A DNA stretch of 64,000 nt from Sphingomonadales bacterium. GTDB lineage: Bacteria; Pseudomonadota; Alphaproteobacteria; Sphingomonadales; Sphingomonadaceae. A model generated the notes under the pieces. That model ran no database searches. It was not told the DNA's origin and saw nothing but the letters and a program-made list of their open reading frames with translations. Shown in pieces: positions 55,913 to 63,853 of this stretch. A program made the position numbers and the translations under genes. Position 1 is the stretch's first letter, and each line of letters starts with the position of its first letter. The stretch spans positions 1-64,000 of the forward strand of contig SEFZ01000023.1 of assembly GCA_004173185.1 (NCBI GenBank). Direction: 5' to 3'.

Positions 55913-56470
55913 TCAGCGCGTTAGCACGGAATAGACCATCCCCATCTTTCCGTCTTTCATCTGCCCATCGGCCAGATCGGCGGGGCAATCGCCGACGCGC
56001 TTGGCGACGATCTTCTGGTCATCGCCCTCAACGCTCAGATCGAGCACTTCGTCGAGCGTGTAGCCCGTCGCCACGTCGCCGGTGAGCGTGCCCTTGGTCG
56101 TCACCGGCTTCATGCCGGGCACGCCGCAGACGGTGACATAGCTATAGCCGGTCGCCGTCTTGGTGAAGGTGCGCGAGGTGCAATCGCCGCCATTGCCGAT
56201 CTGCCGGAAGGCCGAATAGCTCGCTTCGGACTTTTCGCCGACGCACAATCTGTCGGTCGACAGTTCGTCGCCATTGGCTGCCGTATCGGTGAAGGTCCAA
56301 AGCCCTGCCTGACGCTTCGGTGCCGCGATGTTGGGTGCGGCCTGGCTGCTGGTTGCGCCCGCAATCGCTTCGGCGGTGTCACTGCTGGGGACGACCATGT
56401 CGTTGGTGGTCGGCGCGGTGGAGCAGGCGGTTGTCGCCAGCAGGGCTGCGGTGATGAAGGAAATACGCAT
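55913..56470 (-). CDS. Putative exported lipoprotein, DUF3617-like
   Basis: Lipobox-like ATTAC; QAGLWTFTD...CVGEKSEASYSAF pattern. Confidence 0.6.
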   Translation of the reverse strand: MRISFITAALLATTACSTAPTTNDMVVPSSDTAEAIAGATSSQAAPNIAAPKRQAGLWTFTDTAANGDELSTDRLCVGEKSEASYSAFRQIGNGGDCTSRTFTKTATGYSYVTVCGVPGMKPVTTKGTLTGDVATGYTLDEVLDLSVEGDDQKIVAKRVGDCPADLADGQMKDGKMGMVYSVLTR

Positions 56471-56490
56471 CGTCTTTCTCCTGCAAGCGC

Positions 56491-57360
56491 TCAGCAGCCG
56501 CCGGGATTGTTGCTGGTTTTCTCGGCGGAATAATAGTCGGCAAAGGCGTCCCGCGCCGACGGGACATTTCCGCGCACGAGCCCGCGGAAGCCGCCGCGAC
56601 CATCCTGTTCGACCTGGAAAAAGCCGGTCCGGTACGTCTTGTCGCCCGATGAATCGGTTTCGATGATGTTGAGCTTCATCACCCGACCTATGACGGTGCC
56701 GGACACCTCGCCCTGCTGATAGGCGTAGCACCCGGTGACTTTGTCGCCCTCTTGCGAGATGTGCATGAAGCCCAGCCCGCTGCGCCCTTCATACGACCCG
56801 CTGAAATCAGGCATGTCTTCGCTCTGCGAGGTTACGCGGCCATACCCATGAAAGCCGGTCAGCGCAGTGTATTCCGCCCCATAATTGCCGGTGAGGGTCA
56901 GCCGCACCCAGCGTCCGGTGGGGCGATCCTCGGGCTTGAAGGCGAAGGACTGGCCGTTTGCGTTCATCCGCAGCGTGCCGGACAGCACTTGCTCGAACCC
57001 CGAACTGGCGGAAGTATTGGAGAGTTCGACGGTGAAGCCCTTGGGCGACTTGCGATCGATGCCGCCGGTATCGAATGCGATACGGCTGAGTTCGGTCTCT
57101 TCCGCCAGCTCGATCACGAACACCGCCCGATTGCCTTGGGCGGTCCAGTCCGTCGCGGGGGATTCGTCCATCAGGTTCAGCGCGCTGGACGACATTTGGG
57201 AGATCGATTCGCCCTCCGGATATTCGACCATGTCCGCGCCTGCGCGATAGCTGAACAAGTCCGTCCCCGCGGTCTGCGCATTTGCCTGTGCGGCGATCAG
57301 CATGGCCGCGCCGATCAAAGGGAATGTTGCGGCGAACCGGGCCTTACGAAGCGAGATCAT
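56491..57360 (-). CDS. Exported protein with discoidin (F5/8 type C)-like region
   Basis: Signal peptide; NLMDESPATDWTAQGNRAVFVIELAEETELSRIAFDTGG...GRWVRLTLTGNYG resembles an F5/8-C beta sandwich. Confidence 0.6.
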   Translation of the reverse strand: MISLRKARFAATFPLIGAAMLIAAQANAQTAGTDLFSYRAGADMVEYPEGESISQMSSSALNLMDESPATDWTAQGNRAVFVIELAEETELSRIAFDTGGIDRKSPKGFTVELSNTSASSGFEQVLSGTLRMNANGQSFAFKPEDRPTGRWVRLTLTGNYGAEYTALTGFHGYGRVTSQSEDMPDFSGSYEGRSGLGFMHISQEGDKVTGCYAYQQGEVSGTVIGRVMKLNIIETDSSGDKTYRTGFFQVEQDGRGGFRGLVRGNVPSARDAFADYYSAEKTSNNPGGC

Positions 57361-57390: not shown

Positions 57391-57423
57391 GGCAAGACGA
57401 TGAAAGCCGGCGAAAGCGGACAG
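57391..57423 (-). promoter_or_regulatory. Candidate ECF sigma promoter upstream of the discoidin-like gene
   Basis: Gene orientation CTGTCCGCTTTCGccggCTTTcatCGTCTTGCC; 26/33 identical to 63821-63853; 30 nt from the start codon. Confidence 0.6.
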
Positions 57424-57490
57424 GCTGCGCGAAAGATTTTTCCTAACGACGTTTTCGGTGGACTTCGCCTATCCCTGCCATAGCGTGCAG

Positions 57491-59956
57491 ATGATCAGGG
57501 GGATCGGCGATATGCACGGTGTCAGCGCGAAGGACTGGGGTGCGATCCAGTCGTTGTTCGAAGAACTGGTCGATCTGCCAGCCGAGGAGCAGGGGCGCAG
57601 GCTCGATCGTTCCACCCAGCCTGCGGAGATTGTGAGCCAGACCACGGCGCTTCTCGCCGCCGCCCGCGCCGACGGTATTCTCGATATGGCGACGCCGTCG
57701 ATCGACGTGCCGAGCAGCCCGAGCGGGTACCGATCGCTGGCCGAGGGGCAAATCGTCGGCGGTTTCACTATCGATCGGCTGATCGGCCGTGGCGGCATGG
57801 GCGAGGTGTATCTCGCCCACCGTACGACACAGGATTTCGAGCAGCGCGTCGCGCTCAAGATGCTCCGCACCGAAGCGAGCGACCGGGGCGACATGTTCGC
57901 GCGCGAACGCCGCTTGCTCGCCCGGCTCGAACATCCCGGCATTGCCCGGCTGATCGACGCGGGAATCGCTGAAGACGGGCGCCCGTTCATGGCGATGGAA
58001 TATGTCGATGGTCCGGCGATCGACGTCTGGTGCCGCAGCCAAAAGGCCGACCTCGACACGCGCCTCAACCTGTTTCGCGACGTTTGCGAAGCAGTGGCCT
58101 ATGCCCATGGCCATCTCGTCATCCACCGCGACATCAAGCCTTCGAACATCGTGATCGAAGCGGGCGGGAAACCGCGCCTGCTTGATTTCGGCATCGCCAA
58201 ACTGCTCGACGACACGGCCGCAGTGCCGATCGTCACGCAGGCGATGCTGACACCCGATTATGCCGCGCCCGAACAGCTGGATGGCGACGAGGCCTCGGTC
58301 GCGACCGACGTCTATGGTCTTGGCATATTGCTTTACGAACTGGTGACCGGCGCCGGGCCGTGGCACCGCGAAGGCGCATCGGTGCCGGCCATCATCCGCC
58401 GGGTGCTGTATGAGGATCCTGCGCTGCCCAGCCGCGCGGCCGCTAGCGAAGACGCCCCAATCCCCGCTGCGCGGATCAAGGGCGATCTCGACGCGATCAT
58501 CCTGAAGGCGATGCGGCGCGCTCCGGGGGATCGCTATCGCAGCGCCACCGAATTGGCCGAGGATGTGGCGCGGCACCAGGCGCTCAAGCCCGTCCGCGCC
58601 CGCGAAGGATCGACCCGTTATGCGTTGGGCCGGTTCGTGCGGCGCTATCGCTGGGCCGTGGGCGCGAGCGTTGCGGCGCTCGCGGCATTGCTGATCGGCG
58701 CGGCCGGCATCGCCTGGCAGGCACGCCAGACCGCGATCGAACGCGACCTGGCGCTGGCGGAAGCACGACGCAGCGAAGCGATCCATCGGATGCTGACCGT
58801 GATGTTCCGCGACACTGCCGATAGCGATGAGGGCGAGGACGCGACGGTCAAACAGATGCTGGATCAAACTTCCGGCCGGCTGGTCGAATCGCTCGATACC
58901 AGTACCAAATCCGCCGAACTGATCCGCACCCTGATCGATCTCTACGCCAATCTGGAAGATATGGCGGGCGCGGATTCGCTGGCCACGCGCGCGCTCGCCC
59001 GGGGCATCGGCAAGGATGATCCGGTCGCCACCGCGCAATTGCAGATCCGCGCTGCCGGCACCGCCGCGATCGTTGGCAAGGCCGATCGGATCGCGCCGTT
59101 GCTCGACGCCGCCGAGCCGGTGTTTCGCCGCGATCCCGATCGCTTTGCGCTTGAACTGATCGATGTCGATCATGGCCGCGCGCAACTGCTGCACCGTACC
59201 GGCAAGCTTGACGAATCGATTGCTGCGCTGACCGAGTTGCTGCCGCGCGCCGATCGCATTCTGGTCGAGAACCATCGCGATCTGCTGACCATCTACAACA
59301 ATCTGCTGGTCTATATGATCGAAGCGAACAAGCTCGATGCAATGCCGGCGGTCTTAACCCGGGTCGATGCCGTGCTGAAACGCACCGGCCAGCAGGATTC
59401 CCAATTGGGCCTGAGCATCGCCCAGCTGAAAGGGCTGCGCCAGCTCAAGCTGAACCAGCCCGCCGCCGCCGCCGCGGTCTTCGCCGATATCGTCGCCAAG
59501 CGGCGGAGTTTTGGCCGCTCGGCGAGCCTGGCCGTCGATTTGATGCAACTCGGGCGTGCCCAGCTCGTGCTCGGCAAATATGCCGAGGCGGCCCGTACGC
59601 TCGCCGAATCCGAGGAGATCGCGATCGAGAAGCTGAGCCCGGCTGCGCCACCCACATTGGTGATCAGCGCCACATTGGCCGAGGCGCAGGCGGAAGCGGG
59701 CGATACCGCCGCCGCCAGCCATACGCTCGACCGGATCGAGCCGCTGGTGAAGGGAATGCCGGGACCCTTCCTGCCGATCGTGCTGCGCGCCCGCACGATT
59801 ATCCTGCTCAAACAGGGCAAGAAGGCCGAAGCGCTTGCCATATTCGACCAGGCCGAGCGATTGTTCCATGCGCTCGGCCCGGCGGGCGCGACCTATATCA
59901 AAGGACTGCCTGCACTACGCGCGCGTCTGACCAAGCTCCAGGACGCGAAAGGCTAA
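57491..59956 (+). CDS. Transmembrane serine/threonine protein kinase with C-terminal TPR-like region
   Basis: IGRGGMGEVYLAHR...VALKML, HRDIKPSNIVI, DFGIAKLL, APEQL; one TM helix; helical repeats to the C-terminus. Confidence 0.93.
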   Translation: MIRGIGDMHGVSAKDWGAIQSLFEELVDLPAEEQGRRLDRSTQPAEIVSQTTALLAAARADGILDMATPSIDVPSSPSGYRSLAEGQIVGGFTIDRLIGRGGMGEVYLAHRTTQDFEQRVALKMLRTEASDRGDMFARERRLLARLEHPGIARLIDAGIAEDGRPFMAMEYVDGPAIDVWCRSQKADLDTRLNLFRDVCEAVAYAHGHLVIHRDIKPSNIVIEAGGKPRLLDFGIAKLLDDTAAVPIVTQAMLTPDYAAPEQLDGDEASVATDVYGLGILLYELVTGAGPWHREGASVPAIIRRVLYEDPALPSRAAASEDAPIPAARIKGDLDAIILKAMRRAPGDRYRSATELAEDVARHQALKPVRAREGSTRYALGRFVRRYRWAVGASVAALAALLIGAAGIAWQARQTAIERDLALAEARRSEAIHRMLTVMFRDTADSDEGEDATVKQMLDQTSGRLVESLDTSTKSAELIRTLIDLYANLEDMAGADSLATRALARGIGKDDPVATAQLQIRAAGTAAIVGKADRIAPLLDAAEPVFRRDPDRFALELIDVDHGRAQLLHRTGKLDESIAALTELLPRADRILVENHRDLLTIYNNLLVYMIEANKLDAMPAVLTRVDAVLKRTGQQDSQLGLSIAQLKGLRQLKLNQPAAAAAVFADIVAKRRSFGRSASLAVDLMQLGRAQLVLGKYAEAARTLAESEEIAIEKLSPAAPPTLVISATLAEAQAEAGDTAAASHTLDRIEPLVKGMPGPFLPIVLRARTIILLKQGKKAEALAIFDQAERLFHALGPAGATYIKGLPALRARLTKLQDAKG

Positions 59957-60489
59957 GTCGCTGCCATCTCGTGATGGATCCACGCCCGCGCCTGAACCCA
60001 CCAGCGCCGCACCGTACGATCGCTGACGCCGAGGACGGCGGCGGTTTCGCGCTCGTCCATACCCGCGAAGAAGCGGCAATCGACGACTTGCGCGAGATTG
60101 GCATCGAACTGGGAGAGCTGCTTGAGCGCGTCCCCGAGCCGGACCACCTCGGCATCCTCTGGCGGAGCGGCGGCCAGCGAATCGAGGCTCTGGGTAAAGC
60201 TGTAGGTTGGCGCATTGCGTTTCGATGCCAGCCGCGCCCGCGCCGCATCGATCAGGATATGGCGGATCGCAGTGGCGGCGCAGCCGAGGAATTGCGACTG
60301 GCTTTCCCAGCCTTCACGCGAGCGCAGCTTCATATAGGCTTCATTGATCAATGCGGTGGGCTGCAATGTGTGCGGCGATCCGGCGCGGTAATGTTCGCGC
60401 CGCGCGATCATGCGCAGCTCGCTGTAGAGACCTTCGATCAGTTCGTCGGCGATCGCGGATTTGCTGTCCGCGTCGGTGATCTTGTCCAT
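59953..60489 (-). CDS. ECF RNA polymerase sigma factor (TIGR02999/ECF43-like)
   Basis: LYSELRMIARREHYRAGSPHTLQPTALINEAYMKLR...FLGCAATAIRHILIDAARARLASKR...VVDCRFFAGMDERETAAVLGVSDRTVRRWWVQARAWI. Confidence 0.92.
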   Translation of the reverse strand: MDKITDADSKSAIADELIEGLYSELRMIARREHYRAGSPHTLQPTALINEAYMKLRSREGWESQSQFLGCAATAIRHILIDAARARLASKRNAPTYSFTQSLDSLAAAPPEDAEVVRLGDALKQLSQFDANLAQVVDCRFFAGMDERETAAVLGVSDRTVRRWWVQARAWIHHEMAAT

Positions 60490-60501
60490 ACTTACGCGAT
60501 G

Positions 60502-60541
60502 CCCACGCTACGACCTGCATTTCATGCGGCGGTAGCGTGGG
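60502..60541 (-). promoter_or_regulatory. Long hairpin immediately upstream of the ECF sigma start codon
   Basis: CCCACGCTAC...GCATttcATGC...GTAGCGTGGG; 10-bp outer and 4-bp inner stem, ending 12 nt from the start codon. Confidence 0.6.
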
Positions 60542-60575
60542 GATAGCAAGTGCTCAGGGTTAACCGGAGCGCTGG

Positions 60576-63500
60576 TTATTTGATCGGCTTCAGCCCGCCT
60601 TGCTTCTTGAGCTGTCGCTGGGTTTCAAACGATTGCTCCAGTTTCTCGCGTACCTTGGAATCGTCGATCGCCTTCTGGAATTGCGGCGCATATTCCTTGT
60701 TGACCTGTTGGTTGATCCACTGGGTCGACATGGTTGGATAGGCCTTGCCGAGTTGCAGCCCGCGCGGCCCCATTTTCGCGGCCAGAGCATTCACCTCGTC
60801 AAAGCATTGCGCGTCCTTGCACTGCGGGGTCCAATAGCCCTGGGCAAATATCGCCATGGCGTTTGAGACCGCCTCGGATTTGCGGCCGCTGCTTTCGCTG
60901 ATCAGTGTGTAGGCCCGCTTGTCCGCCTCGGTGAGCTCGGCCTTCATCTGCGAAATGTTGAAGAGCGGGTAGGCGTCGTGACTGTGGTGGGCCGAGGACA
61001 TGACTTCCTCGCGGATCAGCCGCACGCCGGTCCGGCAAACCGCATCGAGGCATTTGGGCATCCAGCGCGCCGTGAAACCGGCCGCCCATTCCTCCAGATC
61101 GCCATCGAACTGCGATTGCGAGCCTTTTTGATTGAAGCGGAAATCGCGACTGCAGACGGTGCCGGCATGGCAGGAGAAATCGACGCCGCCGGGCGGCAGA
61201 TCGATCGCAAGCTGGGGGAACCAGATCGGCCAGTCCCAATGCGTGCCCCACACGGCCAGATCGATGAAGGCGCGCGCGGTGATGCCCGGAGTGATATTGA
61301 ATTTGAGATTGTAGACGGGGTTGTCGACCCGGAAGGTGCTCGATTTGTCGCTCGCTTTGATTGCCAGCGGCACATCCTGGCCGTCGTGATCGATGATCGT
61401 CGCACCACCGCCTGTGGTATCGTGCAGCGTCAGGTTCATCTTCTCCGAATTGAGCGTGACCTTGACCGCGGGGAACACCTGTCCGCCGAACACGCCGAAA
61501 TTGGCGCGGCCGCCGATCAGATCGAAATCGTCAAAGACCTTCACGAATTCGGGGTTGCTCTGCGACACGCCCGGCGTTGGCGGGGTGAACTGGCCGTGGG
61601 CGAGATCGCCGGTAAGCCCGTCGGTGAAGTCCTTGCCGATCTCGAGCTGGACCGGACCAAGCTGCCCGACGATCGGCAATTTGGCTGAAACCCCGGCATA
61701 GGCGCTGACTTCGGCGACCAGCTCCTTGCCGTCGAACAGCTTGGCATCTTCAAGCCCCGCCGCCCGATAATCGTCTACGTTGCCGTTGATCGGGGCGATA
61801 CGAACCTTGAGCCGGGCCTTCCCATCGGCATCAGGCTTGGGATTGTACGTGCCGCCGAACCGGATCGGGAAGCGCAGGCCGAAGCCATAGGAAAAGCCAG
61901 CGAACAGCTCTGCGTAATAGGTCTTCTTGCAGCCGACGAGGCACCATTTTATCGTCGTCTCGACGCGCTGCTTCCACTGATATTCCTTGCCGAGCGTGAA
62001 GCCGGTCAGGAACGTGTAGTTGCCGATATCATATTCGACATCGATCGGCACCGGCGGCTTATACGGTAGTTTCACCGGCATTTTGAGCGGCGTAAGGATG
62101 GGGCCCAGCGTTTCGAACGTGGGCATGAAGGCGACCTGCTCGACAACGCTCTCCGCCGAATTGGCCAGTTCGCCGGCCAGCGCCTCGTCGTCCAATGCTT
62201 CAAGCCGGTTGACCTCGGCATCGCCGAATTCCGCGACGATCTGTGCCCGCTGGGCGGGGTCCGCAATCTGCGCGCGGAACCCGGCCACGCTATTGTCGAT
62301 GTCGGCGGCAATTTTATCCGCCTGTGCGCGCGCCGCCGCGACGGCCCGAAGGCGCTGGCGCGGATCGCGGACATAGTGCGGATTGGCCGGATTTGAGAAA
62401 CCCGCCTCGCGCTCGACGTCGCTTTGCTTGGTGAAGCAGTTCACCCCGGACTCGGCAATTCTTCTGCGCCGAACGGCGTCGCGGCAACCGCCCGGGCGGA
62501 TCACGTAGCCGAGTACGCTGTGCACGATCAGGCCCTGCGGAACCTCGGTCGCTTCCAGGATGTCGACACATACATCGACCTGATCGGGGATCTGGCGCAG
62601 CTTCTGCGCGATGTTGACCAGCGCCTTCGGGTTTTGAACCATCGGCTTGAAATCGAAGCGGGTCTTGCCGATCGTCAGGATCGAATTCCCCCGCACCACC
62701 GATGCCGGAATCTGCCGAAGCGCGGGCAATGTCTTCATCAGATCGCCATGGCTGCCCGGGCGCAATGTCACCGAACCCGGTAGCGCCGGGGCAGTAACCC
62801 CAGCGGGGGGGATGATCGTGGCGAGCGACCCGTTCTGCGCCGACGATTGCAAGGTCGCAGAGAAGGTCCCACTCGGCATGCCGCAACGCCGCTGCGGCGC
62901 TAGCTGATACTGTCCGCCTAACGTGCCGACCGGATTGGGCTCGGGAAGCTCCACGACCGGCAACCGGCGGACCCGAACGGGCGTGGGATCGGCCAATTCG
63001 ACGGGGGGCGCACGACGGACGCGGACTGGTCCGGTATCCTGCGGCGGTGGTGTGGCCTCGACCGGGATGCGCCGGGTGCGCACCGGCGTGGCTTCGATCG
63101 GTTCGCGCGTATCCTGTCCCGGGGTGCGTCGGACGCGGACTGGCCCGGTCTCCTGTGGCGGTGGTGTGGCCTCGACCGGGATGCGGCGGGTGCGCACCGG
63201 CGTGGCTTCGATCGGTTCGCGCGTATCCTGTCCGGGGGTACGCCGGACGCGGACTGGCCCGGTCTCCTGCGGCGGCGGCGTTGCCTCGACCGGAATGCGC
63301 CGGGTGCGCACCGGCGTGGCTTCGGTCGTCTCGCGCGTATCCTGTCCCGGAGTGCGCCGGACGCGGACTGGCCCGGTCTCCTGTGGCGGCGGCGTTGCCT
63401 CGACCGGTATCCGGCGTTCGCGGACCGGCACGCTCTCGGACGGTGTGGAGGTATCGCCTGAGTCAAACGGGTCGCGCTCGCGGGGCGGCGTGGCTTGCGG

Positions 63501-63788
63501 GATGCGGCGTTCGCGCACGGGCCTGGCTTCGCGGGGGGCAGGGGTCGCGTCCTGCTCGCGGAGATCGACCGTGCGCGGGCCGGTCTGGCGCGGTGCAGGG
63601 GTTTCAGCCGCGGGCGAGCGCCGGATGCGCGTCGTGGACTGTGCCTGCGCAGGCGTTGGCGTAGGGCTCGGCACCACTGCGATGCGTTGCCGCGGCTTGA
63701 GCTGAGCTGGCATTTCCTGCGGGAAAGCGGGCCACGCAGCGGCTCCAAGCAGCACAGCACTCAATCCGAAAAGTCTCGCCATATCCAT
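60576..63788 (-). CDS. Large (1070 aa) exported protein with Pro/Arg-rich tandem repeats and a unique C-terminal region
   Basis: Signal peptide, N-terminal 38-aa tandem repeats, long non-repetitive remainder. Confidence 0.85.
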   Translation of the reverse strand: MDMARLFGLSAVLLGAAAWPAFPQEMPAQLKPRQRIAVVPSPTPTPAQAQSTTRIRRSPAAETPAPRQTGPRTVDLREQDATPAPREARPVRERRIPQATPPRERDPFDSGDTSTPSESVPVRERRIPVEATPPPQETGPVRVRRTPGQDTRETTEATPVRTRRIPVEATPPPQETGPVRVRRTPGQDTREPIEATPVRTRRIPVEATPPPQETGPVRVRRTPGQDTREPIEATPVRTRRIPVEATPPPQDTGPVRVRRAPPVELADPTPVRVRRLPVVELPEPNPVGTLGGQYQLAPQRRCGMPSGTFSATLQSSAQNGSLATIIPPAGVTAPALPGSVTLRPGSHGDLMKTLPALRQIPASVVRGNSILTIGKTRFDFKPMVQNPKALVNIAQKLRQIPDQVDVCVDILEATEVPQGLIVHSVLGYVIRPGGCRDAVRRRRIAESGVNCFTKQSDVEREAGFSNPANPHYVRDPRQRLRAVAAARAQADKIAADIDNSVAGFRAQIADPAQRAQIVAEFGDAEVNRLEALDDEALAGELANSAESVVEQVAFMPTFETLGPILTPLKMPVKLPYKPPVPIDVEYDIGNYTFLTGFTLGKEYQWKQRVETTIKWCLVGCKKTYYAELFAGFSYGFGLRFPIRFGGTYNPKPDADGKARLKVRIAPINGNVDDYRAAGLEDAKLFDGKELVAEVSAYAGVSAKLPIVGQLGPVQLEIGKDFTDGLTGDLAHGQFTPPTPGVSQSNPEFVKVFDDFDLIGGRANFGVFGGQVFPAVKVTLNSEKMNLTLHDTTGGGATIIDHDGQDVPLAIKASDKSSTFRVDNPVYNLKFNITPGITARAFIDLAVWGTHWDWPIWFPQLAIDLPPGGVDFSCHAGTVCSRDFRFNQKGSQSQFDGDLEEWAAGFTARWMPKCLDAVCRTGVRLIREEVMSSAHHSHDAYPLFNISQMKAELTEADKRAYTLISESSGRKSEAVSNAMAIFAQGYWTPQCKDAQCFDEVNALAAKMGPRGLQLGKAYPTMSTQWINQQVNKEYAPQFQKAIDDSKVREKLEQSFETQRQLKKQGGLKPIK
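63010..63430 (-). repeat. 114-bp (38-aa) tandem repeats, about four copies
   Basis: CCTCGACCGG recurs at 63056, 63170, 63284 and 63398, exactly 114 bp apart; encodes PVRTRRIPVEATPPPQETGPVRVRRTPGQDTREPIEAT. Confidence 0.9.
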
Positions 63789-63820
63789 GCTCCGTCTGCG
63801 CTGAAGATTGCGGCAATCCA

Positions 63821-63853
63821 GGCAAGACGGGAAAAGGGCACGAAAGCGGACAG
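63821..63853 (-). promoter_or_regulatory. Candidate ECF sigma promoter upstream of the 1070-aa exported protein gene
   Basis: Gene orientation CTGTCCGCTTTCGtgccCTTTtccCGTCTTGCC; 32 nt from the start codon. Confidence 0.6.

Follow-up and report, generated by a model that had tools for sequence, protein, structure and literature searches.

The question raised by this locus is whether two similar 33-bp elements, each located upstream of a gene for an exported protein, serve as target promoters of the ECF sigma factor encoded between them, as was proposed in an initial annotation of the window (the complete 64,000-nt stretch of contig SEFZ01000023.1 from a Sphingomonadales bacterium that was analysed; features in Table 1). 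The comparison with related genomes speaks strongly for this proposal: it is very probable that the two elements are promoters of the neighbouring, kinase-linked ECF sigma factor, which would be activated by phosphorylation and would govern a small regulon of exported proteins.

Table 1. Genes and predicted promoters of the kinase-sigma locus (positions in the window).
Feature	Position	Strand	Characteristics
DUF3617 lipoprotein-like gene	55913..56473	-	17 nt downstream of putative target gene 1; order kept in L003
Putative target gene 1, exported protein, 289 aa	56491..57360	-	Matches Sad1/UNC and, weakly, F5/8 type C (discoidin-like)
Predicted promoter 1	57395..57422	-	-35 TGTCCG 57417-57422, 17-nt spacer, -10 CGTCT 57395-57399; matrix 38.3 bits
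Hanks-type Ser/Thr kinase	57458..59956	+	Single transmembrane helix (around residues 400-420); TPR region at the C-terminus
ECF sigma factor, 178 aa	59953..60489	-	PF07638, TIGR02999 above cut-off; ECF43-like; QPTA for DAED
Putative target gene 2, exported protein, 1070 aa	60576..63788	-	Proline/arginine-rich N-terminal repeats; same strand as sigma
Predicted promoter 2	63825..63852	-	-35 TGTCCG 63847-63852, 17-nt spacer, -10 CGTCT 63825-63829; matrix 41.9 bits

The element pair and its genes

In gene orientation, the motif CTGTCCGCTTTCG-N4-CTTT-N3-CGTCTTGCC is matched exactly at positions 57391-57423 and 63821-63853; the two copies have the same internal spacing and are identical in 26 of 33 positions, as originally described. 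The recomputed gaps between motif and start codon (30 nt to the ATG at 57360, 32 nt to the ATG at 63788) likewise agreed with the initial annotation, and both downstream proteins start with a signal-peptide-like stretch. Since the flanking 30-nt blocks of the two copies had only 4-14 of 30 positions in common (versus 23 of 30 in the motif block), their surroundings are indeed unrelated. With up to three mismatches allowed, the window contained these two copies only (dinucleotide shuffles: zero), which bears out the claim that the motif does not precede other genes here; it was found neither before the kinase gene nor before the sigma gene's own start. A genome-wide search for the motif returned the same two copies from the genome of origin (5,071,242 bases in 140 contigs, up to three mismatches), the reversed-pattern control giving no match. 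Sigma-70-type promoters and intrinsic terminators did not exceed the shuffle level in the region, with none on the relevant strand.

The kinase and sigma genes are convergent, their stops overlapping by 4 bp, and the co-oriented 1070-aa gene ends 86 nt (60490-60575) from the sigma gene. Homologues of the 289-aa protein (47-53% identity) were present in about ten further orthologous loci; the adjoining DUF3617 gene probably belongs to the same operon. No known family was matched by the 1070-aa protein in family searches and in a PDB sequence search, and its AlphaFold prediction from four sequences reached a pLDDT of 37.7, too low to inform on the fold. Its N-terminal part (window 63000-63450) contains near-identical tandem repeats of about PVEATPPPQETGPVRVRRTPGQDTREPIEATPVRTRRI.

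Conservation of the element across related genomes

A search with the sigma factor retrieved ten sphingomonad loci (70-90% identity), all ten of which contained the element. In 13 orthologous loci (245 kb), the pattern TGTCCG-Nn-CGTCT was matched 19 times at n=17, compared with 0.18 matches expected per spacing; every other spacer length from 5 to 30 nt gave 0-2 matches. This fixed 17-nt spacing supports the claim that the elements are target promoters of the sigma factor. In the logo of 21 sites, TGTCCG was invariant and CGTCT nearly so (CGT invariant), the spacer being variable; S-T-T was favoured after the -35 element, and a T before and a C three nucleotides after the -10 element, both outside the -35/-10 core, were conserved. 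According to these sites, the predicted consensus is TGTCCGSTT (-35) and CGTCT (-10), with a 17-nt spacer separating TGTCCG from CGTCT; the originally proposed TGTCCGC-N16-CGTCTT falls into the same registration as this cross-genome unit (TGTCCG-S-T-T...CGTCT). The sites thus consist of fixed-spaced -35 and -10 elements upstream of start codons, as is characteristic of ECF sigma-dependent promoters. The suggested comparison of orthologous loci accordingly revealed a 17-nt-spaced motif that accompanies the sigma gene across the Sphingomonadaceae: It was located at every close-orthologue sigma locus examined except that of genome G423. Cultured carriers exist, Sphingopyxis granuli being one of them.

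Association with the sigma factor and held-out sites

The 11-bp core was rejected as a genome-wide marker (about one match per genome, no more than with the reversed pattern); longer patterns and a weight matrix were used because of this lack of specificity. In a genus represented by 80 genomes, a close sigma orthologue (E 3e-100 or lower) was encoded in 12; in a thirteenth carrier (G432), a contig of 1 kb contained a truncated sigma gene next to a site of 41.7 bits. The strict pattern TGTCCGSWY-N11-Y-N2-CGTCT-N2-C, on which the comparison of 13 with 67 genomes rests, was detected in 11 of 13 sigma-bearing and 6 of 67 other genomes of the genus (Fisher p about 8e-8). In both carriers without the strict pattern, the locus contained sites that nearly match it (G451: 27.2 and 22.5 bits; G443, locus L091: 32.1 and 29.1 bits, these being training sites as they are on the same contig as L005). 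Regarding the six non-carriers with the strict pattern, three have near-identical sequences, and those scored reached at most 16.3 bits.

The matrix was built from 18 core-selected sites, for which reason the held-out sites alone are informative as a test. These scored 41.8 (G452), 31.1 and 30.4 (G454), 39.4 (G423) and, for G451, the values given above, i.e. a range of 22-42 bits versus at most 17 bits for chance pattern matches; the background maximum in the window was 13.1 bits. Three genomes contained sites unlinked to the sigma gene, and all of these sites preceded genes for exported or surface proteins: the G423 site lies 325 kb from the sigma gene before a trimeric autotransporter-like ORF of 1.78 kaa, and in G255 and G379, held-out sites that scored 25.7 and 24.9 bits precede a lipoprotein-like protein by 40 nt and an exported protein by 37 nt, respectively (other near-matches in both genomes: 17 bits or less). 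The proposed link between motif and sigma factor is reinforced by these unlinked exported targets and by the motif being largely absent from genomes of the genus without the sigma gene.

Target genes in relatives

That the putative regulon comprises exported proteins holds in the relatives as well. YadA-family adhesins were located downstream of the site in five loci (L003, L004, L006, L009, L010), homologues of the 1070-aa protein (41-43% identical) under the same motif in three (L005, L007, L090), and 289-aa protein homologues, encoded singly or as second or third gene of an operon, in many. In L003, which is the closest relative and whose sigma factor is 90% identical, the place of the 1070-aa gene is taken by an adhesin; the promoter has thus been retained with a different target. 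The 289-aa homologue of this locus (L003:13052-13388) appears to be a shorter version that retains the signal peptide and the C-terminus but lacks the middle. At L071:10255, the -10 element of the site is degenerate (CGTCC), and an integrase gene follows in place of a target gene or adhesin, possibly because a mobile element has taken the target's place.

Paralogous sigma factors and alternative assignments

Distant paralogous kinase-sigma pairs keep TGTCCG-N17 with another -10 element, either TGTTCT (L074:8546; L076:8852 and 8818, two divergent sites) or CGTTG (L073:10273; L075:9590), and these sites stand before exported genes, one of them adhesin-like. The paralogous sigma factors differ from the orthologues in residues of region 2.4 and retain RTVRR in region 4.2; at three loci with RTVER (L077-L079) no TGTCCG-N17-type site was found. 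The -10 changes appear to track the sigma clades, a correlation drawn from a handful of sites. YadA-like adhesin genes were also present near more distant kinase-sigma pairs (L075, L077, L079, L080, L097, L098), which suggests that the adhesin link extends more widely within the family.

Conservation alone cannot separate a promoter from an operator, and the conserved T and C outside the core would also suit a binding site of another regulator (e.g. of a two-component system) that controls the exported genes and is unrelated to the sigma factor. This reading is improbable in view of the two unequal half-sites, which always have one orientation to the gene and are exactly 17 nt apart, the CGTC-type -10 element, the sigma association across a genus and the -10 changes along the sigma clades. 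CGTC-type -10 elements are common to several ECF groups, and the genome of origin encodes further ECF sigma factors, one of which might have a similar specificity and own the promoters, the local sigma factor having other targets. The probability of this assignment is lower still, if only slightly: The sigma factor of the window is the only TIGR02999 member above cut-off in its genome, the strict sites track sigma factors of its type among the 80 genomes, and the sites are concentrated around the sigma gene. That the two copies match by chance or through a recent duplication and have no function, as the spacer letters CTTTCG and CTTT shared by both beyond the core might suggest, is scarcely credible given the zero count in shuffles and the unrelated flanks, and is already contradicted by conservation in diverged genomes with variable spacers. 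The elements are assigned to the local sigma factor because the same element accompanies it in about twenty related genomes, usually before adhesins or exported proteins; judged from this comparative evidence, they are almost certainly start sites used by the neighbouring sigma factor.

Sigma factor class and proposed mechanism

The sigma factor scored 167.9 bits against TIGR02999 (cut-off 126.15) and 116 bits against PF07638; a PDB sequence search yielded no match. A Hanks-type kinase gene adjoins the sigma gene, a pairing kept in the orthologous loci, and the kinase contains GRGGMGEVY, VALK, HRDIKPSN, DFG and YAAPE, its catalytic motifs being intact. The initial annotation had left out this kinase, which makes the sigma factor a candidate for phosphorylation-dependent control of the ECF43 type. 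The defining ECF43 motif is an uncharged, threonine-containing QTTA/STTA that replaces the acidic DAED (PMC13147305, PMC8999054); ten aligned orthologues have QPTA or QTTA in region 2.2 with T45 invariant in all ten, whereas other ECF sigma factors of the same genome carry acidic motifs (DIDD, EVED, ESED, EAED). By family assignment, adjacent kinase and QPTA with its invariant threonine, the sigma factor is classified as ECF43-like. In EcfP and EcfK the equivalent threonine is phosphorylated by the partner kinase, which in EcfP brings back the charge that binding to core polymerase requires (PMC8999054, PMC8103513, PMC13147305). Since the EcfK T51A mutant is still functional and linker sites matter too (PMC13147305), T45 is possibly not the sole phosphorylation site here.

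We infer that the sigma factor would be idle until the adjoining membrane kinase, on a presumed signal, phosphorylates T45; the phosphorylated protein would then bind core polymerase, and the resulting holoenzyme would read both 33-bp elements and activate a regulon that is very small and largely local, composed of the 289-aa protein with its DUF3617 neighbour and the 1070-aa protein. In its own genome, this regulon appears to comprise just two transcription units, both at the locus. Transcription of the 1070-aa gene may also continue into the sigma gene and result in positive feedback; such feedback would not be general, because in several relatives the adhesin gene is divergent from the sigma gene and the site there does not precede the latter. 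In the relatives, the same promoter would drive YadA-type trimeric autotransporter adhesins. Most likely, then, the kinase phosphorylates the sigma factor, which transcribes a tiny, mostly local surface-protein regulon, and surface or adhesion remodelling is the most likely output. There is about an even chance that the loci represent a minimal surface-display module, in which promoter, phospho-activated sigma factor and kinase are kept and the exported target is exchanged (adhesin, 1070-aa repeat protein or discoidin-like protein), with sigma feedback in some lineages.

Comparison with known systems

Kinase-linked ECF sigma factors (ECF43) are a known kind, and outputs are known for few ECF43 systems; no description of such a promoter consensus or of an adhesin-type regulon was found in the literature consulted, the published ECF43 promoter consensus lying outside the comparison. 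The present locus supplies a concrete predicted consensus, a candidate phospho-site (T45) and a putative two-unit regulon, whereby signalling from kinase to sigma factor to promoter becomes testable with a single reporter. In addition, kinase-associated sigma factors are linked to surface adhesins in environmental sphingomonads, and the paralogues, whose -10 elements are altered, provide natural variation with which sigma specificity could be mapped.

The locus resembles EcfP-PknT of Vibrio parahaemolyticus in the kinase gene beside the sigma gene and in the uncharged region-2.2 motif with threonine in third position (STTA in EcfP, QPTA here). It differs in output, which is polymyxin resistance in the former and would be exported proteins here and trimeric autotransporter adhesins in relatives. 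EcfK-PknS of Xanthomonas citri likewise combines an ECF43 sigma factor (motif QATE, T51) with a transmembrane kinase, part of which is extracytoplasmic; there the output is an anti-amoeba type VI secretion system, whereas none was seen in this locus. ECF41-type promoters read TGTCACA-N-CGTC, and ECF41 sigma factors carry a C-terminal extension. A fused regulatory domain of ECF41 is named in the title of PMC3426412. The promoters described here have the TGTC start of the -35 element and the CGTC core of the -10 element in common with the ECF41 type, but differ from it in the complete -35 element (TGTCCGSTT), and the C-terminal extension is absent from the 178-aa sigma factor.
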